Assembly (NCBI GenBank): GCA_013178415.1
Contig: JABLXA010000006.1
Location: 1 to 64,000 of the forward strand
Length of the DNA: 64,000 nt
Direction: 5' to 3'
From: Bacillota bacterium
GTDB taxonomy: Bacteria; Bacillota; SHA-98; Ch115
In this document: piece by piece, positions 8,948-38,081 of the stretch
Layout: each line of letters opens with the position of its first letter
How positions within the stretch are numbered: position 1 is the stretch's first letter
The notes under the pieces: generated by a model
Databases searched by the model: none
Told to the model about the DNA's origin: nothing
Seen by the model: only the letters and a program-made list of their open reading frames with translations
Translations under genes and position numbers: made by a program

Positions 8948-10177
8948 ATGGAAAGGGAGAAACGATTCGGACCCTGGCTTGCCTGGAGAAGGATCTATCG
9001 CTCAAGCGCTTTAGTGACGATGGTTCTTGCAGGTGCCCTGATGTTGATAAGTTTTACTCCTTTCTTCATGGCCGCAGCGGAGGAAACCACCGCGCAATCG
9101 CCATATGGAGATATCGTCACCCTGGACCCCGATAGGACCGTCGACGATGATGCCTTTCTTGCTGGACGGGTAGTTCATGTACGCGGCAATGTGACTGGAG
9201 ACCTGTTTGGAATAGGAGACACCATCGAGACTTCCGGCAAGGTAGGAGGCGATGCTATCCTAATGGGCCGGACTATACGAGTTAGCGGAAGTGCTGATGG
9301 CGATATCCGGGCCTGCGCTCAGTATGTAACAGTAGATGGAAGCTCCAGGGGCAATATGTCAGTCGCAGGGCAAGCAGTCACCATCTCTGGCAATACCAGC
9401 GTAGGCAGGAACGCGCATCTTGCTGGAAATACCGTGGATGTGCTCGGGAATATCGCTGGGAATGCGAGAATTGGCGCGAGTAAAGTAACTATAATGGGCT
9501 CTATCGGGAAGGACTTGTTTGTCGATGCGGACGAGCTCATAATTGGCAGCAGGGCTCATATCGGGGGCAATGTGAACTACAGGGGCCCCAAACCCCCTAC
9601 AGTCGAAAGTGGCGCTACCATAGGCGGGGAAGTCAAACATACGGTCCCGCCGGGGAGAAAGGCGCCAACTCCGGCAGCAAGATTCTTCAGACACCTTCTT
9701 GACCTTATAAAGTTCGTGGTTCTTGGGCTCCTGGTCGCTCTATTTGCTTCGAAAGGCATAAAGGCCTTGATATCCACCGTGCGCCAGCGGGGACTTGTGA
9801 GTTTTGCCGCTGGGGTAGCGTCGACCATCGTGATTCCCCTGGCCCTCATCGTTCTCAGTGCCATCATCATAGGCACTTCAGCCGCATGGGTGCTGGCTGC
9901 GGGCTATTCCGCCGTGTTCATGTTTGCAATTTCCTTCTTCAAAGTCTTTATAGCTTTTCTGGTGGGCGAACCGCTGGCCAGGGCGATATTTCATAAAGAG
10001 GATGTGCCCCTCGTGCATTCAGCCATAATTGGCGGGATTGCCATATACCTGGTCACCCTGGTCCCGTATCTGGGCTTCGTTATTGGAGCCATCGGGATAT
10101 TCCTGGCCCTGGGGGCTTTACTCATATTGCTGAAAGATGCTGCCCTTTCATGGCCATTCGCAAAGAAGGCCGCCTGA
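8948..10177 (+). CDS. Polymer-forming (bactofilin-like) membrane protein
   Basis: The 409-residue protein starts 8 bases after AGGAGGTAAA. Residues 20-45 form a signal or membrane segment. Residues 55-235 are a run of short beta repeats with glycine/asparagine turns (VHVRGNVTGDLFGIGD, ILMGRTIRVSGSADGD and similar), the right-handed beta-helix pattern of bactofilin/polymer-forming cytoskeletal domains. The last 160 residues contain four or five transmembrane helices. Related Firmicute proteins are annotated as polymer-forming or hypothetical membrane proteins; the exact role is unknown. The repeats probably face outside, given the N-terminal signal. A TATAAT box at 8888-8893 may be the -10 element, without a clear -35. 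Confidence 0.8.
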   Translation: MEREKRFGPWLAWRRIYRSSALVTMVLAGALMLISFTPFFMAAAEETTAQSPYGDIVTLDPDRTVDDDAFLAGRVVHVRGNVTGDLFGIGDTIETSGKVGGDAILMGRTIRVSGSADGDIRACAQYVTVDGSSRGNMSVAGQAVTISGNTSVGRNAHLAGNTVDVLGNIAGNARIGASKVTIMGSIGKDLFVDADELIIGSRAHIGGNVNYRGPKPPTVESGATIGGEVKHTVPPGRKAPTPAARFFRHLLDLIKFVVLGLLVALFASKGIKALISTVRQRGLVSFAAGVASTIVIPLALIVLSAIIIGTSAAWVLAAGYSAVFMFAISFFKVFIAFLVGEPLARAIFHKEDVPLVHSAIIGGIAIYLVTLVPYLGFVIGAIGIFLALGALLILLKDAALSWPFAKKAA

Positions 10178-12850: not shown

Positions 12851-12874
12851 GGAATTCGGATAGCATCGAATTCC
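12851..12874. promoter_or_regulatory. Perfect inverted repeat just upstream of the pilin-like operon
   Basis: GGAATTCG (12851-12858) and CGAATTCC (12867-12874) are separated by 8 bases. The repeat ends about 8 bases before the AAAGGAGGTGA ribosome-binding site of the next gene. It may be a protein operator or a 5' leader hairpin that controls access to the ribosome-binding site. Confidence 0.5.
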
Positions 12875-12897
12875 ATGGTAAAAGGAGGTGAGAAAGG

Positions 12898-13467
12898 ATG
12901 GAGTTTCTAAGGTATCGGCATGGCAAGATCAGGCTTGTCTTCTTCATCGTTTTGACCATAATCCCCCTGTACTTTCTTTTGATGCCTGCGGCTGTCAAGG
13001 CGGGGAATTCAACGGCCACCACATCAGTCATCTGCAATATTGCCAATGCTATCGAGACCGTTTTCCCGACGCAGGTAACTTTTGGCGATCTGACGCCCGC
13101 CACGGACGGATATCATACCACACAGGTCAGGGCAACCGTAAGGAGCAATGCATCATGGAAAATCACGATAAAGTGCGACCAGGCAGGCGGCAAAATGCGC
13201 GAATGGGATGGATCCTCATATGTGACGGATGGACGCAACCTGTCGCAACCATTGTGCTGGAAATTGGCAGATCAGCCTGAAAGCGCGTACAAAGCTCTAT
13301 CTAATGAAGAGGCTATCGTGCTCCCGGAGGCGGGAGCAACAGGAACGGCAGGCCGAATTATTTCGATTGACCTTGGCCAGAAGGCATCCTATGATGACCT
13401 GCGGCTGGCTTCAGCAGGAAGCAGTTATAGGATACTCATATCGTTTACGGCGACGCAGCTTTATTAG
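12898..13467 (+). CDS. Small secreted beta-rich protein, pilin-like
   Basis: This 189-residue protein is preceded by a near-perfect AAAGGAGGTGA site. Residues 1-37 are a signal peptide (basic start, long hydrophobic run, cleavage near VKAGNS). The mature part is beta-rich, with the pattern ICNIANAIETVFPTQVTFGDLTP, an alternating-strand middle with two further cysteines, and a final strand YRILISFTATQLY. The same plan (FGxxxP near the start, a YxxxxxFT strand at the end) is seen in the first 200 residues of the large protein two genes downstream. The plan recalls WxL or SCPU-type surface subunits, but I cannot assign a named family. As first gene of the operon it would supply the most abundant product, as expected for a structural subunit. 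Confidence 0.7.
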   Translation: MEFLRYRHGKIRLVFFIVLTIIPLYFLLMPAAVKAGNSTATTSVICNIANAIETVFPTQVTFGDLTPATDGYHTTQVRATVRSNASWKITIKCDQAGGKMREWDGSSYVTDGRNLSQPLCWKLADQPESAYKALSNEEAIVLPEAGATGTAGRIISIDLGQKASYDDLRLASAGSSYRILISFTATQLY

Positions 13468-13661
13468 GACATATCAGGGATTTGATGCCACTCCTCTATT
13501 GGATGAGACACTGCTCCAGGGGCCAAAGGAATCGGGGCTCCTCCTGGGATCGATGTCGCCGGGAGGGGTTCCCAAATTCCTGACTGACCTATCTTCGGGT
13601 TGGTTATGTAGGAAGGTGATGGATACCTCGAGTTTATTGGGATATGAAGGAGGAGTTGAGT

Positions 13662-14606
13662 TTGAGGAAATTCCTGTACCTAATTCCAATAGTGATATCT
13701 TTCATCATATCAGGAGAATTGGTGGATGCTGCATCAGTGGCAGTAAGTCCGACGAGGATCGAGCAATCGGTGAGAAATGGAGATTTGCTGGCGCCAATAA
13801 CTGTCACAAATACGGGGGAGGAGCCTCTCTTTATCCATGCATACGTTGGACCGGGAGGACATGATGTACATGGTGCTCCGCTTTTCCTGGGCAGCCGCGA
13901 TATAGAGAAAGACAGGGAGGCTGGTGAAACGGGAGCGCGGAATGAATCGTCCGGCCACTATGAGTCCAAATCTGGTATTGAGTTGCTGCAAGATGAATTC
14001 CTCCTCTCACCTGGAGATTCGGCTGAGATACTGGCTAGAGTGGATGTGCCGGATGATATGTGCGGCGGAATCTACCCCATCATTTATCTCGAATGTTCCC
14101 CGCGAGGAACAAGGAAGAAAGCGGAGGTAGCTGCCACGTCACGCATAGCGATCCTGACCATTCTTACTCTTCCTGGAAGAGCGTATGCAAAGATCTTGGC
14201 CAAAGAGTTGAGGATCACACAGCTTGATTCTTCAGATTCCGTAGGGATCGAGCTCATCGTCGAAAATATCGGCAACACCCACTCATATGCGCTGGCATTT
14301 GCCGAGATAATCGGCCCTTCGGGGGAAGTGGCTGGCAGCTTGCCCCTCGACCCGACCCTTGTGCTGCCGGGCCGTTCAAGGGCGCTCAAAGGCATATGGA
14401 AACCTGCGACCCTCATTCCGGGTGAATATCTGGTCAAGGCAAGCATCGCCAACCAGGATCAGTGGAATGGGCCCAATAGCGGAACCCTTGGGTCAAGCAC
14501 TCTGCGAGAACAGGGTCTCTCGTGCATCTCGAGATCATTTACCATTAGAAAGCGATTAGCTATGCAACCAGAAGGGGGAGGAATGGCGCTTTCTTCCCAG
14601 CGATGA
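13662..14606 (+). CDS. Secreted two-Ig-domain chaperone-like protein
   Basis: The protein is about 314 residues. I chose the TTG at 13662 because AAGGAGG lies about 8 bases upstream and the product then begins with a clean signal peptide (MRKFLYLIPIVISF). The mature protein opens with VAVSPTRIEQSVRNGD and ITVTNTGEEPLFIHAYV, the N-terminal strand pattern of PapD-like and WxL-interacting (DUF916-like) domains. A second Ig-like domain (VENIGNTHSYALAFAEI, then PGRSRALKGIW) follows at about 190-290. Unlike Gram-positive WxL-interacting proteins it has no C-terminal membrane anchor, so it is probably soluble and periplasmic or extracellular. Its end overlaps the next start by 4 bases (ATGA), so the two are coupled. 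A chaperone role is inference. Confidence 0.75.
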   Translation: MRKFLYLIPIVISFIISGELVDAASVAVSPTRIEQSVRNGDLLAPITVTNTGEEPLFIHAYVGPGGHDVHGAPLFLGSRDIEKDREAGETGARNESSGHYESKSGIELLQDEFLLSPGDSAEILARVDVPDDMCGGIYPIIYLECSPRGTRKKAEVAATSRIAILTILTLPGRAYAKILAKELRITQLDSSDSVGIELIVENIGNTHSYALAFAEIIGPSGEVAGSLPLDPTLVLPGRSRALKGIWKPATLIPGEYLVKASIANQDQWNGPNSGTLGSSTLREQGLSCISRSFTIRKRLAMQPEGGGMALSSQR

Positions 14607-17600
14607 CCGTGGGAAGGAATCTGCGCCGCAGAACCGTGAGAACGATCTGGGTAATGCTCTTTCTCTGCCTATTACACCATATGCTGGCTTCTCCAATTCC
14701 GGCGCTGGCTGCAGCGGAAGGCAAATCCGTGGGGGGAGACAGGATTGCCTCAAGGGGAGAACTAATTCTGGATGGTAATGTGCCTACCCTTGATTTTGGC
14801 CAGATCAGCCCCCTCACCTCCCCGGCGATATGGACCCGAGCAATTCACCTGGAGGTCCTGGGATCTGGCGAGCCCTGGACGCTCTATGTGCAATCTAGAG
14901 GCGATTTCGCTATACCAGGCAGATCCCAGACCATGCCGGTTTCCCGTTTAAAATGGGCGCGCGCGGTTGAAGGGGTTCCACCCAATTGGTCGCCAGTGAC
15001 AACATCTGCGCAGGAAGTAGCAAGGGGGAGTTCTACCGGTTCGCCTAACAGGACAGAAGTCTGGCTCGACCTCAGGCTTGATGCTGCATGGGACGATCCA
15101 GTTCCAGCACCAGGGGAGAAATATCGCGGAGAATTGCTATTCACGGTCAGCGCCGGGGAACTCAAATCCAATTTCGTTTTTCCGAACCCCTTCTCCCCAG
15201 CCCTGGATCACTATGTCACTATAAGGTATTTCCATACAGGCAGCGTGCCCAACCCCACATATGCTAAATTTACGATTCGCAATTCCGAGGGGCGACTGGT
15301 CTTCCAAAAAGGAGAAACCGTCTACAACGATGCCTGGCAGGACTTTGTCTGGCCAGGCCAGAATATGGTCGGGAAACCTGTCCCTGATGGGACATATAGC
15401 TTTAGCGTGAGTGACCAGAATAACCTAATTCATGCGGCGGGGACGATAATCCTCCAGAATAGTGCGCCTACCGGGGGTACATCGAAAATCCGGGGACGGG
15501 TATCAGATTCCATAAGCGGGGATGGACTCCCTGGAGTCATCATGAAGCTATATACGTCCAGCCATAAGGAAGTGGCAGCGACCAGAACCCAAATGGATGG
15601 CACATTTATCTTCGGTTCTATCCCGCAGGGTCAATATTATATCGAGGCCACTCTACCCGGATATGTCCCGTATACAAGCCCCCTCATCAGTCTAGGGGCA
15701 GGGGAAGATAAACAGTTCAACATTACCCTTTCATCAAACTCGGCCCTTTTCTTAACCGCGGAGGTTCATCCTCAAGATGTGACTCCAGGGGACATGATCA
15801 CGTGCAAGGGAATTGTTGAGAATGTTGGAACCAGGCCCCTGAAGGAAGTCGTTCTGGAAGATCTGTCTGGCTGGCCATTTGAACCCCTGACCCATGTCGA
15901 AGAGCACCCAACCCTAATTCAGCGCATAGGTCGGCTGGAAGTTGGAGAGAAAAAGGCAGTAGAATTCAAGATGACGGTGCATCCCAATGCTGAGCCAGGC
16001 ATATATTTCTGTCATTTGACTGTCAAAGCCGCGGCAGTCAAACCGGGAGGACATGGGCTCAAAATGATCGAACAATCAGCCCGGGCGAAAGTGAAGATAA
16101 GGCCCGGGGTCTTTGATAGATCAGGCATTGTGATGGGCAGGGCCTTCCTTGATTTTGACGGAGATGGGACACTCGATGATGGAGAATCGCCTGCAGCCGG
16201 AATGTCGATCACGACCCAGCTTGGACATCGAGTTAAAACAGGGTCAACAGGTGAATTCACCATTAAGGGCCTAACCCCTGGCATGTACGCCATTAGGCCA
16301 GTTCCCTGCAATGATCTGCAGGCCTTCGATGCCATCGTTGTCGATGTGCCACAAAGCGGTGGAATAGTAATGGCCGAAATCCCTATCCGTAAGACTGGCC
16401 AGGAGCCAGATCAAGTCAACACCTTGATACATGGCCGGAATGGCGAACTCAATCTCGATATCCTAGCGGCTGGAGATTTAATGATAGGGGCAGCTCTTGA
16501 TGCGCCAGGGGGCCCGTCGCCTTCTCCGCTGAAAGGAAGGCTCTCCGGGACCTTGACCATTAAGGGGTCGGCCCCAGATTGGCTGCGCTCAGAGTACGAC
16601 CTGAGATTGACTCTGGATTCCCGGGGGCTTATCCCTGCCAGCGCACAAGACGACGCCGACGCCAACCTCATAGGTTCCCCTCTAGATCTATTCGACGAAG
16701 ATTCATATAGCCTGAGATATGCTGACCCTATGTATTGGGCGCTGAATGTGAAGGCAAATGCGAACACGGATCAGGGCGACCTGATTTTCAAGGCAGGGCA
16801 CATTACACTCGACCAGGCTACACGGAATGGGGCCCACGATCCATCCAGTGCATGGCTTCCTTCGCAGGGAACAACGCCTTTGCCATCCTGTTCGCGACTA
16901 CCTGCCTCAATAGACGGCATTGGCATGGAGTTCAGGTCAAAAGAAGCCCAGGGCAATATGAGCGCGAGGTTCGGCTCCTTTCTGGGAACTCCGCGCACGG
17001 TGAACATCACAGATAGACTTCCGGGAACCGGAGGTCCCGGTCCATACAGGTTGAGGAATATTCCCATAACCGCCGGCTCCGAAAAAATTCATGTTGAGGC
17101 GCGCGACCCTAATAGCATGTCTCTCGCCTATACACTGACTCCACGTTATACCATCGATTATGCCACAGGAAGCGTAACCTTTGATCGTTCCATCGGAAAG
17201 ATGGATAGCGCAGGGAATTTGATGATCATCGTAGCTTCCTATGAGAGCATGGTGGAGCGAGGGAATCCCGCTTTTATGATAGGCGGGGCAAAGTTTGAGT
17301 TGAGTCGGGAAAACCCGGGGGATTCAACGGGCTTTTCAGCGGGATTAGGACTATCTCTTCCTTTATCCCAATGCTATCTTGCGGATACAACCTTTGATAT
17401 GCCGAGCATATTTGACGCATCAGTCAAGTTTAAGCCTTTCGGCAATCTTTCATTGAATGGCGAATTCACGCGGTCGCTGGATAGGCTTTGGTCTGTAGGG
17501 CTCCTGGCAAATCCTTCAAAGGCCCTGGAGATACGCCTGAAATCAGGTATCCAGGAGATCCCGACTCCAACGCCGGATTCTGTAGCTTCGCCATGGGCCC

Positions 17601-18790
17601 TGGATCACATAGAAAATTGTCGTGAGACACGTGAGTATCAACAGTGTGAGATTCTCTACAAACTAGATGAGCAAAGATCCATCTCTTTAAGTTATCGCGG
17701 TGAACAGGACGCCGATACTTCCGGCGGCCTTCATCTCCTGTCGGCGGCCTGTGATTCAGGTTCTTCGCGGATCGGTTTTGAGATGGGGCGAACTGGCGAA
17801 GGAGCTGAGACCTATGCCTTTACCTCCAAGCAAGATATCTCTCGCTTCCCTCTAACCCTAAAGGGAAAACTCAGAAAAGGCCCCGGCAGGAAAGATACAA
17901 GTGGGGATACAGAATACGCGACTCCGAGATATACAACATCACTTGAGATAGGAACTGCAGTCGGCGCAGGGAGATACTTGAGATTTGAACCCCATCTGGA
18001 TCTTGCCTGGCACTCTCCCGGCTCGGAAGATGAATTGGCTTCATCCCTTATATTGGGCGTAGAAACAACCGATGAAGCGCCATTCCATATGAATGGAACC
18101 TACCAAAGAGATCTTGCGGGAGGCAATAGATCTTCCCTCAGTTTGGGATTTGAGACCTTGAGAACTGGAGATGTTAACATCGAAGGCAGACTGCAGCTGT
18201 CGGATGGCGGAAATGGCATCCATCAGGGAATGAAACTCGCCTTCGATTATAGGCCATCATCCGATCCTGGGCTAGTGTCCATTGGCTACGTCTCATTCTC
18301 GAATTCGTCGATAAAAACCACGAACGACGTATCTGAAAATGCACTGATGGAGGGGTCTCTCCTCCTCGCCAGGAAGATCACCGAGGATCTTTCGGCATCC
18401 ATCCGTTTTTCACGAAAGATTGTGGGGGAATACAGGTCTTCAGGAATGCAGGCAAAGGTAAGCAGCAATCTTCTGACAGGGCGCGCACTATTCAAGATCA
18501 ACCCACGATTTCACCTTATGTCAGACTATTCAATAGCGACTCAAGAGGAGACTGGCGTCAACTCACCTGGCTATCGGTTGGAGGCCATCTTCCCACTGGC
18601 TAACGGGTTTCAGCTTTCCGTCGGCTGGGCCTCCATGGCCGCGGGAAAGGCTGCCGGTGACGGGCGCCATCACGGGCATACAAGCTACCCCCACACCGGA
18701 AGCATCACAGGGTGGAGCAGTGGGGGCCCATACATAAGACTAGGGTTTGTTTTCAATAAAGACTGGTTTATCCACCATACAGGACCATAG
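14603..18790 (+). CDS. Very large multidomain surface protein with a C-terminal beta-barrel-like region
   Basis: The 1395-residue protein has a signal peptide (about 1-38). In order: a pilin-like module (about 45-195, LDFGQISPL ... YRGELLFTVS); a FlgD-like Ig unit (about 195-285, NPFSPALDHYVTIRYF ... VPDGTYSFSV); a carboxypeptidase-regulatory-like fold (about 297-378, IRGRVSDSISGDGLPGV); a CARDB-like unit (about 380-500); an SdrD-B-like unit (about 515-600, FLDFDGDGTLDDGES); and about 780 residues of alternating short strands. The middle holds the PYRLRNIPITAGSEKIHVE and YTIDYATGSVTF motifs I associate with large outer-membrane proteins of diderms. The last clear strand ends in FVFNKDWF, six residues before the stop. 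I infer an outer-membrane barrel fed by the two upstream gene products. The fold assignment needs structure prediction. Confidence 0.72.
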   Translation: MTVGRNLRRRTVRTIWVMLFLCLLHHMLASPIPALAAAEGKSVGGDRIASRGELILDGNVPTLDFGQISPLTSPAIWTRAIHLEVLGSGEPWTLYVQSRGDFAIPGRSQTMPVSRLKWARAVEGVPPNWSPVTTSAQEVARGSSTGSPNRTEVWLDLRLDAAWDDPVPAPGEKYRGELLFTVSAGELKSNFVFPNPFSPALDHYVTIRYFHTGSVPNPTYAKFTIRNSEGRLVFQKGETVYNDAWQDFVWPGQNMVGKPVPDGTYSFSVSDQNNLIHAAGTIILQNSAPTGGTSKIRGRVSDSISGDGLPGVIMKLYTSSHKEVAATRTQMDGTFIFGSIPQGQYYIEATLPGYVPYTSPLISLGAGEDKQFNITLSSNSALFLTAEVHPQDVTPGDMITCKGIVENVGTRPLKEVVLEDLSGWPFEPLTHVEEHPTLIQRIGRLEVGEKKAVEFKMTVHPNAEPGIYFCHLTVKAAAVKPGGHGLKMIEQSARAKVKIRPGVFDRSGIVMGRAFLDFDGDGTLDDGESPAAGMSITTQLGHRVKTGSTGEFTIKGLTPGMYAIRPVPCNDLQAFDAIVVDVPQSGGIVMAEIPIRKTGQEPDQVNTLIHGRNGELNLDILAAGDLMIGAALDAPGGPSPSPLKGRLSGTLTIKGSAPDWLRSEYDLRLTLDSRGLIPASAQDDADANLIGSPLDLFDEDSYSLRYADPMYWALNVKANANTDQGDLIFKAGHITLDQATRNGAHDPSSAWLPSQGTTPLPSCSRLPASIDGIGMEFRSKEAQGNMSARFGSFLGTPRTVNITDRLPGTGGPGPYRLRNIPITAGSEKIHVEARDPNSMSLAYTLTPRYTIDYATGSVTFDRSIGKMDSAGNLMIIVASYESMVERGNPAFMIGGAKFELSRENPGDSTGFSAGLGLSLPLSQCYLADTTFDMPSIFDASVKFKPFGNLSLNGEFTRSLDRLWSVGLLANPSKALEIRLKSGIQEIPTPTPDSVASPWALDHIENCRETREYQQCEILYKLDEQRSISLSYRGEQDADTSGGLHLLSAACDSGSSRIGFEMGRTGEGAETYAFTSKQDISRFPLTLKGKLRKGPGRKDTSGDTEYATPRYTTSLEIGTAVGAGRYLRFEPHLDLAWHSPGSEDELASSLILGVETTDEAPFHMNGTYQRDLAGGNRSSLSLGFETLRTGDVNIEGRLQLSDGGNGIHQGMKLAFDYRPSSDPGLVSIGYVSFSNSSIKTTNDVSENALMEGSLLLARKITEDLSASIRFSRKIVGEYRSSGMQAKVSSNLLTGRALFKINPRFHLMSDYSIATQEETGVNSPGYRLEAIFPLANGFQLSVGWASMAAGKAAGDGRHHGHTSYPHTGSITGWSSGGPYIRLGFVFNKDWFIHHTGP

Positions 18791-20146
18791 CTATGGTGTC
18801 ACCCGGTCCCTGTCCCTGGGGAATAGAGAGGCTTCCCTGACATTTGAGAGCCCCAGCAGCCGGGCTGTGAGCCGCTCGAGACCTATGGCAAGGCCTCCGT
18901 GAGGAGGCATGCCATATCTAAAAATCTTAAGATAGTCTGAAAAGTTGTCGGGGTCAAGCCCACGCTCCTTCATACTGTTCACCAGCATGGCATAGTCGTG
19001 GATACGCTGGCCCCCTGTGGTGACCTCAAGTCCTCTGAAAAGGAGGTCAAAGCTTTTGGTGAGGGAAGGGTTCTTGTCGTCAGGCATCGCGTACATTGGA
19101 CGCACAGATCTTGGAAAATGAGTGATAAAGATGAACTCCGATCCAAAATGCTTCTCTGAATATTGGCAAATTAGCCTTTCCCCTTCAGGATCCAAATCAG
19201 ATGAAGCACCCTGCTTATATCCATATTCCTTTTCAATGATCCTAATCGCATCCGCAAGTGGAATCCTCGGGATCTTCGAGACCACTGGAATAGAAGATCC
19301 CAGCAGCTCGAAATCTCTCTTACAGTTATCATTGAATTCTCGCACGAGGGCTTTGAGAAACTCTTCTTCAAGATCCATTATGTCATTTTCGTCGCGAATG
19401 AAGCCCATCTCCAGATCAAGGCTCACATATTCATTGAGATGCCGGGAAGTATTATGCTCTTCTGCCCTGTAAGCATGGCCTGTTTCAAACACTCTTTCAA
19501 AACCTGCCGCGACCCCCATCTGCTTGTAGAATTGAGGGCTCTGAGCAAGATATGCCCTTTTTCCAAAGTAATCAACAGGAAACAGTTGGGAGCCACCTTC
19601 AGCCCCCGCAGCCACGATTTTAGGCGAAAAGATCTCGATGAAACCCTGAGATCTCAAGAATTCGCGAAAGACCCTCACAATCTCTGCCGATACTCTAAAG
19701 ATGGCATGATATGTAGCATGGCGGAGCGACATCACCCGGTTCTGAAGCTGGACATCCAACCCGGCCCGCAGGTTGGTCTTATTTATTTCAAATGGCGGAG
19801 CGTCCAGAGCCCTGTTTATCACGCGAATGCTGTTCAGATAAACCTCGACACTTTGCGGAGCCCGCTCCTCCGCTCTGACCGTCCCGGTCACTGAGACGGC
19901 GCTTTCAAGATTGATCAGATTATCCTCTTCATCTAAGCTATCCGGCCTATTTGACTCTGATGACATGACAACTTTTCCTCTTTCAAAGACACACTGAATC
20001 ATGCCTGACCTGTCTCTGATGATCAGAAAAGTCAAACCTCCGAGATCTCTTATAGCATGCACCCAGCCAGATAGACTTACCACCTGATCTATGTATTTCG
20101 GAACATCCGCAGCAAGGACACGTTGCTTCGTCTCTTTTTCCTCCAT
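18791..20146 (-). CDS. aspS: Aspartyl-tRNA synthetase, archaeal-type (probably Asp/Asn non-discriminating)
   Basis: This 451-residue class II synthetase charges tRNA-Asp in the cytoplasm. The N-terminal OB fold (VVSLSGWVHAIRDLGGLTFLIIRD) binds the anticodon. Motif 2 (AYRAEEHNTSRHLNEY) and motif 3 (GGLAIGLERLTARLLGL) are intact, and the end FPRDRDRVTP is characteristic of the short archaeal-type AspRS rather than the 590-residue bacterial type. Such enzymes in bacteria often also charge tRNA-Asn, with GatCAB completing the reaction. There is a small acidic insertion at about 58-78 within the OB fold. Its stop abuts the stop of the barrel-protein gene with no spacer. No T-box motif was found upstream. 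Confidence 0.93.
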   Translation of the reverse strand: MEEKETKQRVLAADVPKYIDQVVSLSGWVHAIRDLGGLTFLIIRDRSGMIQCVFERGKVVMSSESNRPDSLDEEDNLINLESAVSVTGTVRAEERAPQSVEVYLNSIRVINRALDAPPFEINKTNLRAGLDVQLQNRVMSLRHATYHAIFRVSAEIVRVFREFLRSQGFIEIFSPKIVAAGAEGGSQLFPVDYFGKRAYLAQSPQFYKQMGVAAGFERVFETGHAYRAEEHNTSRHLNEYVSLDLEMGFIRDENDIMDLEEEFLKALVREFNDNCKRDFELLGSSIPVVSKIPRIPLADAIRIIEKEYGYKQGASSDLDPEGERLICQYSEKHFGSEFIFITHFPRSVRPMYAMPDDKNPSLTKSFDLLFRGLEVTTGGQRIHDYAMLVNSMKERGLDPDNFSDYLKIFRYGMPPHGGLAIGLERLTARLLGLSNVREASLFPRDRDRVTP

Positions 20147-20476: not shown

Positions 20477-20479
20477 GTG

Positions 20480-22606
20480 ATGATGCTAGAATCTATCATT
20501 CGCATGCGCCGTACCTTCCTTATTCTCATCCTTACACTGGCTACCATTGGCCCCACAAATATAAAAATGGACGCTGCTATGTATGGAGACCAGGAGAGTG
20601 CCGCCCTCGTAGGGACAGAAAAGGATGATATCTGGATACGGGTGGCCATAAGCCAAAATCCCAACCATGAACCATCCTTTGAACATGACAGGGTAACAGT
20701 AGTCTGCGGCAGCGATACGATGCTTGACTCCTTGGGTACGGCTCAGACGGCCGAGTATAAGTCCGACAGCCCCCTACCTGAATCTGTTCAACCAGATACC
20801 AATCACCAATATTCAGGCCCTATGCAATTCAAAATCCCTACAGGTGCAAAGCTCCTGATCTCAAGCGGGATCGGCGGGGTTGAAGTCATGGAACAGTCTT
20901 CAAAACCAAATGGCGAGGCACTGGAAAGAACCCTAGGCACCTTCCCGTCTGGTGTCGTGATCTCTCCTATCGATGAACATGCGACGCTCGGCATCGCTAG
21001 CATCAGAAGGCCAAAATCTAGTCCTTTCCCTATTTATAGAGGCAAGTTAGAGGTGAAGCCTTCCACCAGGCCGGGGAAATTGCTCGTCATAAATCTGATA
21101 AGGCTGGAAGACTATCTTCGGGGGGTTGTGCCGAATGAGATGCCCACCGATTTCCCGATTGAAGCCCTGAAAGCGCAGGCGATAGCCTCCAGAAGTTATA
21201 CCGTGGTAGAGCTTAAGAAGCATAGCAGCATCGGCGCCGATCTTTGCGATGGGACACACTGCCATGTATATTATGGCGCTGCGAGCGAAAATCGACGCAC
21301 TGATGAAGCCATCGCAGCGACTCGCGGGTTATTTGTCCTCTACCGGCAAGAGGTCGCCAGGGCTTACTATTCCTCTACAGCTGGAGGATTTACTGAGAAT
21401 AACGAAAATGTTTGGCCAGATCCATCTAATGGGAATTTCCCGGGAAATCCTATACCATATCTAAGGGGAGTGCCTGACGATAGTACAATAAAATACCTCG
21501 ATAAGGAAGAGACATTTCGAGAGTTCCTGCTATCACGGGCAGGACGGTATGATTCAGCATCTCCGTATTTCCGCTGGAAAGAAGAATGGTCAAGAACAGA
21601 GCTTGAATCCATTTTCGCCTCTACATTGCCCAAATATGCCACACGGAAATCTAGCTCTCTGCTGCCTTTGCCTTCATGGTCCTTCACAAATCCCGGGCAG
21701 CCCGATATGCCATCGCAACCTGAACCTCAACCACAGCCAGAATCAGAGTCACAACTGGGGAACCAGTCACAGGTTCAACCACAAGCAGCCCCCATGGCAC
21801 AACAGGCACCGGCGGCGCGACAAGACCTTCCAGCCGGTGATCCTCTAGGTCAGCTCCTGGACATACGCGTATTGAAGCGTGGCATATCAGGAAAGATAAT
21901 TTCTTGCGAGATCAAGGGATCGCGCGGGACTTGGGTCGTGGAAGGCGAACTAAAAATCCGGTCTGTATTCAAACCGGCCTTAGGGTCATCTTCGATGCTC
22001 AAAAGCGCCAATGTCATCTTTGACTTGAAGAGAGACAGCAATGGAGAGCTTATCCGCGTCACTGCGCTTGGCGCAGGATTTGGTCATGGGGTGGGAATGT
22101 CCCAATGGGGAGCCCGCGGGATGGCCGCATATGGCGAAAGCTTCAGGTCGATCCTGGGTCATTATTATCAAGGCACCGCCATTGGCACAATGCCCATTGT
22201 ATTGACCCTATCCTCACCGTCCGGCGCTTCAAGTTCTCAGATCTTCAGCTGGCCCGGGGGAGACGCGAGGCTTGTAATCAGCAGAGTCCCCCATCCCTCT
22301 AAGGGCATATTTCGTTCTGTCGTGGACTTCCTCCTTAAGCTGACATCAGGTGACCCCTTCAAGATCAAATCCTTGACAATATCGTTCAATAATAAAGAGA
22401 GTCTAAAGGTCGATCTCACTTCGCTAAATGAAACGCCGCTCACGATAGATGTCAGCGCCTATCTGCGCCCCGGACTAAACAAAGTAGTCTTCGAGGTCAC
22501 CGGGGATCAGCCGCCGGCCCGGGGAGGCTCTTCTTCTCCCCAGGACGCGGATGCTATTCGGATCTCGATCCAGTCATCTCCTTCCGCGGCTCTTCAATCG
22601 GAATGA
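20480..22606 (+). CDS. SpoIID/LytB-domain protein with a Pro/Gln-rich insertion
   Basis: The family includes SpoIID, the lytic transglycosylase that degrades peptidoglycan during engulfment, and LytB amidase enhancers. The protein is about 708 residues, longer than classic SpoIID (about 340). Residues 12-35 are a signal or anchor. The SpoIID core is clear: YRGKLEV, NLIRLEDYLRGVVPNEMP, EALKAQAIASRSY, then YYSSTAGGFTE. The conserved GHGVGMSQWGARGMA follows after a Pro/Gln/Ser linker at about 410-455. A beta-sandwich-like tail follows. Starts at 20477 (GTG), 20480 and 20483 (ATG) are stacked behind GAGGGG. The 3' end overlaps the convergent PHP gene by 53 bases. It could be a SpoIID paralogue rather than SpoIID itself. 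Confidence 0.88.
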   Translation: MMLESIIRMRRTFLILILTLATIGPTNIKMDAAMYGDQESAALVGTEKDDIWIRVAISQNPNHEPSFEHDRVTVVCGSDTMLDSLGTAQTAEYKSDSPLPESVQPDTNHQYSGPMQFKIPTGAKLLISSGIGGVEVMEQSSKPNGEALERTLGTFPSGVVISPIDEHATLGIASIRRPKSSPFPIYRGKLEVKPSTRPGKLLVINLIRLEDYLRGVVPNEMPTDFPIEALKAQAIASRSYTVVELKKHSSIGADLCDGTHCHVYYGAASENRRTDEAIAATRGLFVLYRQEVARAYYSSTAGGFTENNENVWPDPSNGNFPGNPIPYLRGVPDDSTIKYLDKEETFREFLLSRAGRYDSASPYFRWKEEWSRTELESIFASTLPKYATRKSSSLLPLPSWSFTNPGQPDMPSQPEPQPQPESESQLGNQSQVQPQAAPMAQQAPAARQDLPAGDPLGQLLDIRVLKRGISGKIISCEIKGSRGTWVVEGELKIRSVFKPALGSSSMLKSANVIFDLKRDSNGELIRVTALGAGFGHGVGMSQWGARGMAAYGESFRSILGHYYQGTAIGTMPIVLTLSSPSGASSSQIFSWPGGDARLVISRVPHPSKGIFRSVVDFLLKLTSGDPFKIKSLTISFNNKESLKVDLTSLNETPLTIDVSAYLRPGLNKVVFEVTGDQPPARGGSSSPQDADAIRISIQSSPSAALQSE

Positions 22607-36412: not shown

Positions 36413-37870
36413 CTAGTCTCCCCCATCAACCGGATGCGCGACAAACACAGGCGTAGAGAAAGTCACTTTACGGCCGAAGAAATTCAAAATGACCTGCGCC
36501 AATATTGCAACATTCTTCGCCCCCTCATCACCCGGGGAAGGCGCAACTTGATGCGCGCATGGAGCCTTCTCATACGCTCCAACTTGGGTCCAGACGGCCT
36601 GCCGGAAATCTCTAGTGTCGGAAAAAGCCGCCCAGAACTGCACCTCATCTACAGCCGTCCCGGGAGAAACATCTACATGCAGTTCCGCGGCGCCATCCGG
36701 CCTGGACGAAAATTGCCAGTTGATGTTGGGGAGGCGAATGAGGCCGCTTACATGTAAATAGAAGGCCCCCATGGTGGTAAGAAGATCATCATAATCACCG
36801 AGCCCATGACCGGCATTCGGCAGGAACAACTGATAAGTAGGCCCTGGCAAGTCCTTCAGGTATACATTGAGGGCATCCACCGGCCAGTAAGAATCGTTGG
36901 TCCCCACAACAATCAGTTTGGGAATGTCCAGCTGGTCGCGGAAAGAATAAGGATCCACGATGGCCATCAGCAACTGTCCTTCCTCGCCCCCGGCCAGGTC
37001 AGTCAAACCCAATCTTGTATAATCATTGATCGAGGCACTGTAGGTCCCAAACTGCTCCAGCTGCAATTTCATCTGTTCCGCAAGGTTGAGATTGTTGTAA
37101 GACATGGGGATGATCCCTTTGACACGCGGATCTACCGCGCCCGTCAGCCATGAGGTCCACCCGCGTTTCGATGCGCCGGTCACAATAAACGAATCAATCT
37201 CCAAGCCCAGATCCTGCTTTGCAAACGCCTGGATGGCATCCATCGCCCGCACTGCGGATTTGACCATCGGCAACAATGCCGGCCATGTAGAATCCCCTGT
37301 CTCCAGAAATTGAACAAAAGTATGGGCGATCAGGGCATCCTCTGTCAGTCCCCCGAAAAGAGGTTGATTCGGAACATTATTCAGGATAGCCACCGGGGCC
37401 TGAATGACATCAGACACAGTCAATGCCAGCGGGATGATTTCATTCTGGCCTGTAGAAAGGTCGTCACTGCCGGTTATATAAACCATGGCCAGGTGAGGAT
37501 TGAGTAAGGTTTTTGGAACGTAAAATCCCACCTGATGCGTCCAGACTATGTCGTGCCAGGACTGGGACGTAAGGGAAAGTAGATAAAACTTGCCTTGAGT
37601 GTCTACAGGGATTTCGTCTATCTTCTGCCAGGCGAAGGTAGGATCCCCATTTTGCAGGTAGTCTTGTAGACTGTTATGTAGCTTTTCTAGATCGACGGCT
37701 GTCGCAGCGGGCTGATCTTGAGAAGAATTGGATCCTTCCGTTCCGGAGATCGCCCCCGTAGTTCCGGCGGCCAGAGCGGGCGCCCCAGTCGAAAATAGCG
37801 GGAACGCGATGGCAATCAGGATCAGAATGAAAATGGGATCCATCAACATCAACCGGCGGCGTTCCAACAT
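36413..37870 (-). CDS. Secreted PhoPQ-activated-type (PqaA-like) alpha/beta hydrolase
   Basis: The protein is about 485 residues. I chose the ATG at 37870 because AAGGGGG lies 9 bases upstream and the product then starts with a good signal peptide (MLERRRLMLMDPIF to about residue 35). The core is an alpha/beta hydrolase: nucleophile serine in VTGASKRGWTSWL near residue 235, an acid in VVGTNDSYWPVDAL and a histidine in LPNAGHGLGDYDD. PqaA-like proteins are known from PhoPQ-regulated enterobacterial genes, but the substrate is not settled. The mature protein is outside the cytoplasm. The gene is monocistronic by appearance, between two toxin-antitoxin pairs. Confidence 0.88.
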   Translation of the reverse strand: MLERRRLMLMDPIFILILIAIAFPLFSTGAPALAAGTTGAISGTEGSNSSQDQPAATAVDLEKLHNSLQDYLQNGDPTFAWQKIDEIPVDTQGKFYLLSLTSQSWHDIVWTHQVGFYVPKTLLNPHLAMVYITGSDDLSTGQNEIIPLALTVSDVIQAPVAILNNVPNQPLFGGLTEDALIAHTFVQFLETGDSTWPALLPMVKSAVRAMDAIQAFAKQDLGLEIDSFIVTGASKRGWTSWLTGAVDPRVKGIIPMSYNNLNLAEQMKLQLEQFGTYSASINDYTRLGLTDLAGGEEGQLLMAIVDPYSFRDQLDIPKLIVVGTNDSYWPVDALNVYLKDLPGPTYQLFLPNAGHGLGDYDDLLTTMGAFYLHVSGLIRLPNINWQFSSRPDGAAELHVDVSPGTAVDEVQFWAAFSDTRDFRQAVWTQVGAYEKAPCAHQVAPSPGDEGAKNVAILAQVILNFFGRKVTFSTPVFVAHPVDGGD

Positions 37871-38081
37871 AGAACCAGTCCCCCTTAGATTGAAAAATTT
37901 ACAGCTCATTTTGATCCCGTGCCGAACATAGCGTCCCTGCGGACCCCAACGTAAAACGACAAAATCCCAATGAAATGATACCACATTTTGCAAGAAAAAC
38001 CAATATCGAAGACTTGACCCATACGCTCAGCTGATGCCGTGAAGCAGGGGGAGATATGGGCGCATAAGTGAATAAACCGGC

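Follow-up and report, generated by a model that had tools for sequence, protein, structure and literature searches.

A conserved three-gene cassette of diderm Bacillota that resembles WxL clusters and encodes a large protein with a barrel-like C-terminal part

The window analyzed here is a stretch of 64,000 nucleotides from a Bacillota genome (GenBank assembly GCA_013178415.1, contig JABLXA010000006.1, positions 1 to 64,000), and our subject is a cassette of three co-directional open reading frames within it. An original prediction, made from the sequence alone, had described the three genes as an undescribed surface-assembly operon following the logic of chaperone-usher systems. We confirmed the observation on which it rested, while its interpretation was only partly supported: the cassette is conserved, and the family that it resembles is that of the WxL clusters, which had been set aside for want of a barrel partner. 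The genes are as follows.

12898–13467, + strand: gene 1, open reading frame of 189 amino acids; secreted, all-beta, small-WxL-like or pilin-like subunit.
13644–14606, + strand: gene 2, open reading frame of 320 amino acids; secreted protein with two immunoglobulin (Ig) domains, WxLIP-like (similar to DUF916 plus DUF3324).
14603–18790, + strand: gene 3, open reading frame of 1395 amino acids; secreted multidomain protein with a barrel-like C-terminal part.

Gene 3 has exactly the length that had been given for it, and each of the three products begins, as claimed, with a hydrophobic stretch that looks like a signal peptide by eye. The description of the genes as tightly packed holds for genes 2 and 3, which are joined by a 4-nucleotide overlap (ATGA), and not for genes 1 and 2, which lie 176 nucleotides apart. 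A pilin-type attenuator hairpin was sought between genes 1 and 2 and not found, and scans for promoters and terminators gave chance-level results only. Neither gene 1 nor gene 2 matched a family in sequence searches of Pfam, NCBIfam, PHROGs and the PDB; the combination had been called unrecognized, and indeed no family fits it off the shelf.

Homologues of gene 3 were found in the same family (40% identity), in the order (33%) and also in the class, and the cassette as a whole is kept in several families at identities of 30–40%. Because of this conservation, the arrangement is not due to chance. The three products very probably act together. A search for the same gene order in other diderm Firmicutes had been proposed, and it was found in the neighborhoods of relatives: the homologue loci carry genes 1, 2 and 3 together in the order of the window, adjoining genes for a D-Ala-D-Ala carboxypeptidase and a thioredoxin-reductase-like protein that are also present here. 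One family (f9) has the order gene 2–gene 3–gene 1, and in nearly every locus with both genes on one contig, gene 2 directly follows gene 1. In families f63 and f73, in the class members G011–G013 and in two genomes without Omp85 (G036 and G221), genes 1 and 2 form a pair that lacks gene 3. Because this unit exists on its own, gene 3 does not act as an obligatory usher. In G036 (a complete genome; L136:3816-5841) and G221 (L083:4758-6821), the gene-2 relatives of the barrel-less pairs have 461–515 amino acids and a different C-terminal extension; such pairs may represent intermediates that connect the diderm form with the WxL clusters.

Several other versions of the locus were observed. Some class members carry a paralogous second cassette (L018:4780-12571, L023:502-7243, and L022), with a first gene of 527–532 amino acids, a gene-2 relative of 279–302 and a gene-3 relative of 1411–1737. 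In G271 (L137:768-6399), several gene-1-like genes (172–205 amino acids) surround one gene-2 relative and a 719-amino acid protein, as an expanded version of the cluster. A barrel-less gene 3 of 456 amino acids in G031 (L016) was discarded as a probable contig-end artefact; the gene of its congener G294 encodes 1294 amino acids.

The products were then compared with named families by hhalign, as had been suggested, with signal peptides removed and against a small panel of profiles rather than a whole library. The references were WxL clusters from two genomes of the phylum and, as annotated control loci, fimbrial operons from E. coli K-12. When these references were checked against Pfam, WxL was found in 5 of the 6 small WxL-type proteins, and WxLIP_PGBD together with WxLIP_HBD (PF06030 and PF11797) in the 2 WxLIPs checked. 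Reversed and column-shuffled decoys never scored above 1.4%, and for the comparison of gene 2 with WxLIP they stayed at or below 0.5%. The comparison gave matches to WxLIP and WxL and none to the chaperone and usher families.

The clearest family match was that of gene 2, whose profile matched seven WxLIPs at 94% (E 9e-8) over 211 columns, collinearly across both Ig domains, and two disjoint subsets of gene-2 homologues reproduced it at 90% and 93%. Some caution is called for, since the first domain of gene 2 matches the Ig domain of gene 3 and the first WxLIP domain about equally well; it is the collinearity across two domains, not the first domain alone, that makes the match specific, and on these profiles the link between gene 2 and WxLIP appears robust. 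Against six E. coli fimbrial chaperones, the gene 2 profile reached 1%, and PF00345 was not matched. The prediction of a two-Ig protein without a membrane anchor was correct, as no C-terminal membrane helix was found.

Gene 1, of which 29 homologues were aligned, had been taken for a small, beta-rich, pilin-like protein. Its AlphaFold2 model (predicted local distance difference test, pLDDT, 75; predicted template modeling score, pTM, 0.67) is all-beta, with about seven to nine strands, and the first 17 residues of the mature protein are disordered (pLDDT <50). In a Foldseek comparison with the PDB, the best matches were the donor-strand pilins CfaB (CFA/I), PapA (P), FimA (type 1), Caf1 and CsuA/B (Csu), and about 30 of the 50 best were donor-strand pilins or archaeal donor-strand fibers, though with E values from 1.7e-3 upward and template modeling (TM) scores of 0.4–0.5. 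The model is thus suggestive, not proof, of a pilin-like beta-sandwich. The profile of gene 1 scored <1% against FimA-type pilins. The C-terminal Tyr is invariant among close relatives.

The strongest match of gene 1 was to the N-terminal domain of gene 3 (98%, E 2e-14), and from the sequence profiles the homology of the two can be regarded as certain. Gene 3 is made up of this domain and the following parts, the five modules at its N-terminal side being those that the original prediction had counted as extra.

14735–15190, + strand: N-terminal domain (residues 45–196), homologous to gene 1 and WxL-like by hhalign; W-x-L motif in GEPWTL.
15191–15472, + strand: FlgD-type Ig domain (residues 197–290; Pfam core 221–273), PF13860 (FlgD_ig), E 1.6e-5.
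15488–15733, + strand: carboxypeptidase-regulatory-like domain, CarboxypepD_reg (residues 296–377), PF13620, E 1e-18.
15749–16117, + strand: probable Ig/CARDB-like domain (residues 383–505), assigned from the homologue alignment.
16127–16417, + strand: SdrD_B-like domain (residues 509–605), PF17210 in two stretches, the second a presumed copy.
16433–18787, + strand: barrel-like region (residues 611–1395, about 780–785 residues), with an excess of amphipathic strands.
16970–17257, + strand: most conserved part of that region (residues 790–885) in the homologue alignment, GPY.L...GSE...Y.IDY..G...FD...D..GN.
18719–18742, + strand: last strand, SGGPYIRL, conserved in an alignment of 13 homologues, about 11–15 residues before the C terminus.

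Over its whole length, the N-terminal domain of gene 3 matched WxL at 87% (E 4e-6), a match that weakened with smaller WxL sets (62% with the small type only, 21% with the large type only). Its first motif reads W-x-L, and its second Y-x(3)-[LIV]-x-[FYW]-T. The first-motif Trp is invariant among gene 3 N-domains and is present in 21 of the 29 gene-1 homologues, in both cases mostly as W-x-L/I. Taken together, these profile matches give moderate support to a WxL link of the cassette. No SLH domain was matched in gene 3 by Pfam. When a whole gene-3 homologue was modeled, PDB matches to SdrD, sortase pilins and complement C3 were obtained; they reflect generic strings of Ig domains and were not used.

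The C-terminal region, described in the original prediction as an outer-membrane barrel, shows 42 peaks of amphipathic strands, compared with 24.2 +/- 4.3 in shuffled sequences (z 4.2); by the same measure, the FimD barrel has z 2.5 and soluble control proteins about 0. Its last strand, GPYIRL, is kept among distant gene-3 homologues and resembles the beta-signal of outer-membrane proteins. Profile searches of the region and of its conserved block against the PDB gave no meaningful match (SH2-domain hits were rejected as chance), the region matched no Pfam family, including the Pfam ushers, and its profile scored 0.1% against five E. coli ushers. The block at residues 790–885 is possibly a plug or an inserted domain; by tblastn (E 3e-4; 36% over 100 residues) it matched a protein of the OmpA family from Eleftheria terrae. 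The strand excess and the last strand speak for the predicted barrel; on sequence grounds the C-terminal part is a likely but unproven outer-membrane barrel.

As the diderm setting assumed in the original prediction would require, the host genome encodes outer-membrane machinery: the gene for BamA adjoins that for a Skp-like protein, and an OmpM-like protein (L140) has an SLH domain at its N terminus and Phe as its C-terminal residue. Of 398 genomes sampled evenly from the phylum, 102 carried Omp85 and 35 a gene-1 match; 32 of these 35 were Omp85-positive (Fisher p 6e-18, a value that ignores relatedness). In 12 of the 14 gene-1 families, all or nearly all genomes are Omp85-positive, and all 20 genomes with a gene-3-type N-domain have Omp85 (20/20). 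Several Omp85-positive families also hold gene-1/gene-2 pairs without gene 3. In the control genome of Thermotoga maritima, an organism with an outer sheath, WxLIP_PGBD (DUF916) was matched above the Pfam cut-off.

We consider it somewhat more probable than otherwise that genes 1, 2 and 3 encode a WxL-like, three-part, strand-complemented envelope complex of diderm Bacillota, anchored to the outer membrane by gene 3. The three products would be secreted by Sec. Soluble gene 2 would then probably bind gene 1 and the N-domain of gene 3 and lend each a beta-strand, completing their folds and stabilizing both, while the beta-barrel assembly machinery (BAM) would insert the C-terminal part of gene 3 into the outer membrane as a closed barrel. 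The WxL-like and Ig modules of gene 3 would thereby lie in the periplasm and reach the peptidoglycan, and the WxL-like domains are predicted to contact peptidoglycan or each other. Since its large member ends in an apparent outer-membrane barrel, the trio probably connects cell wall and outer membrane; alternatively, the complex may form a platform at the outer membrane's inner face. Gene 3 would be an optional outer-membrane anchor.

Several observations weigh against a WxL-like complex of this kind. Matched directly against WxL, gene 1 reached 30%, a score that was weak and unstable with smaller WxL sets, and the Pfam WxL model did not match it; WxLIP_PGBD touched a single gene-2 homologue (E 0.13), and the profile comparisons were limited to the small panel. 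The second-motif Trp is lost in the cassette, where Y or F usually takes its place; some clustered WxL proteins likewise miss one Trp. The WxL-like domain of gene 3 is N-terminal (residues 45–196 of 1395), not C-terminal as in WxL clusters. A C-terminal membrane helix was found in none of the 28 gene-2 homologues (maximum hydropathy 1.6), compared with all 6 WxLIPs (2.0–3.3). When AlphaFold2 was run on the whole gene-3 homologue with six sequences, the N-terminal modules were built and the barrel-like part was not resolved as a barrel (pLDDT about 30). Lastly, the host already has an OmpM tether, so that the cassette need not supply one.

The first alternative is chaperone-usher-like secretion, in which donor-strand exchange would polymerize gene 1 as a pilin, gene 2 would act as its chaperone in the periplasm, and the fiber would be assembled through an outer-membrane pore formed by gene 3. 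The many donor-strand pilins and fibers among the structural matches of gene 1, its disordered N terminus, as a donor strand would be, the order subunit–chaperone–barrel and the diderm host are all in keeping with it. We nevertheless hold it to be unlikely, since profile and Pfam homology to PapD-type chaperones, FimA-type pilins and ushers is absent, gene-1/gene-2 pairs occur without gene 3 both with and without Omp85, and gene 3 begins with a subunit-like domain where ushers have a different one. Descent from chaperone-usher systems, as the original prediction had it, was therefore not upheld: the cassette would work partly in the way imagined there, yet it does not belong to the chaperone-usher family.

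A bolder view, to which we likewise give only a small chance, is that WxL/WxLIP clusters and chaperone-usher systems share a donor-strand logic and that the cassette, as their diderm form, adds a third kind to the surface assemblies built in this way: a WxL-like subunit, complemented by a soluble WxLIP, would be passed to or exported by a dedicated outer-membrane barrel, which has a subunit-like domain of its own. The cassette could then be ancestral to the Gram-positive WxL systems, or their counterpart, across the diderm–monoderm transition.

More doubtful is that gene 3 encodes an independent outer-membrane protein (of the widespread type annotated as SdrD_B and OmpA, serving as porin, adhesin or assembly factor) and that genes 1 and 2 form a separate peptidoglycan-associated complex sharing the operon by chance. 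This would account for the pairs that occur alone and for the recurrence of block 790–885 in a betaproteobacterial OmpA-family protein adjoining an SdrD_B protein, but gene 3 starts with the partner domain that gene 1 also has (98%), overlaps gene 2 by 4 nucleotides and is kept with the cassette in many families. Least probable is a soluble, beta-rich surface region in place of a membrane barrel: the failed AlphaFold2 model, the lack of a Pfam or PDB barrel family and the 11–15 or so residues beyond the last conserved strand would suit it, but the strand excess equals or exceeds that of FimD, GPYIRL is conserved, and gene-3-type N-domains were found in Omp85-positive genomes only.

Outside the cassette, the next genes downstream encode an aspartyl/asparaginyl-tRNA synthetase-like protein (18791–20146) and a 709-amino acid SpoIID-domain protein (20477–22606), a position kept in the related genome G001 (L013). 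Elsewhere in the window are a 409-amino acid membrane protein that has no Pfam match and whose repeats (VSGDV-type) resemble those of bactofilins (8948–10177), and a 526-amino acid protein of the PhoPQ_related family (36413–37993; Pfam E 5e-100), here in a spore-former of the Bacillota.

The function of WxL proteins is poorly known. The system has been described as almost exclusively one of Bacilli and Gram-positive, with >91% of 938 WxL sequences from Firmicutes and 99% of those from Bacilli (PMC9772566). If confirmed, the presence across diderm Bacillota of a WxL-like triad that has a partner in the outer membrane would tie this system to the outer membrane, give a hint of the role of WxL complexes before or after outer-membrane loss, and provide a testable tie between WxLIP–WxL strand insertion and the donor-strand complementation of pilins by chaperones. 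In the literature that we searched, no paper was found that links WxL to the outer membrane or WxLIP–WxL insertion to chaperone–pilin complementation.

Compared with known systems, the cassette is closest to the WxL clusters of Lactobacillales and other Bacilli, which consist of a small WxL protein, a large WxL protein and a DUF916 protein (PMC9772566; PMC10599100). Both are three-part sets, with a WxLIP (DUF916-DUF3324) or, in the cassette, a WxLIP-like protein as the third member; in both, the small and the large protein (here genes 1 and 3) share one domain, which in the cassette resembles WxL; the WxLIP match of gene 2 spans both domains, and the first W-x-L/I motif is kept. According to a published prediction, WxLIP completes the WxL sandwich by placing a strand in a gap that WxL leaves (PMC10599100), and the pilin-like fold of gene 1 parallels this. 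Chaperone–pilin complementation follows the same principle; the account of strand insertion nowhere mentions chaperones (PMC10599100). Among WxLIPs, EfmWxLIP1 has solved structures (9i1y, 9i25). The differences are that gene 2 is without the membrane helix that WxLIPs have, that the second-motif Trp and the domain position depart as described above (in the published clusters, the WxL domain of the large protein is C-terminal, and adhesin domains are carried; PMC9772566), that the large protein of the cassette ends in a barrel-like region, and that the cassette is found mainly in Omp85-positive Bacillota and below Pfam thresholds. Because several defining features of WxL clusters are absent, we file the cassette as WxL-like, not WxL.

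With the chaperone-usher pili (FimA/FimC/FimD and CsuA/B-CsuC-CsuD), it shares a subunit, a two-Ig partner and a barrel-like protein in one operon, as well as the resemblance of the gene 1 model to donor-strand pilins. Unlike in those pili, profile homology is absent for all three genes, the barrel-like region is larger (about 785 compared with about 540 residues) and preceded by five N-terminal modules, and the barrel is dispensable for the gene 1–gene 2 pair across genomes. The OmpM tether of diderm Firmicutes (SLH plus barrel) offers another parallel, in that gene 3 too would combine an N-terminal candidate wall-binding domain, a spacer and a C-terminal barrel; it differs in having a WxL-like rather than an SLH domain, Ig spacers rather than a coiled coil, and dedicated partner genes, and it is separate from the OmpM-like protein of the host. 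With large proteins annotated as SdrD_B-domain or OmpA-family, such as WP_301261128.1 of Eleftheria terrae, the likeness is limited to the conserved block within the barrel-like region, and in the adjacent region that was read there, no gene-1 or gene-2 partner is annotated. Diderm Bacillota thus carry a conserved and previously undescribed variant of the WxL triad that has a probable outer-membrane partner, and its new element relative to the WxL family is the barrel.

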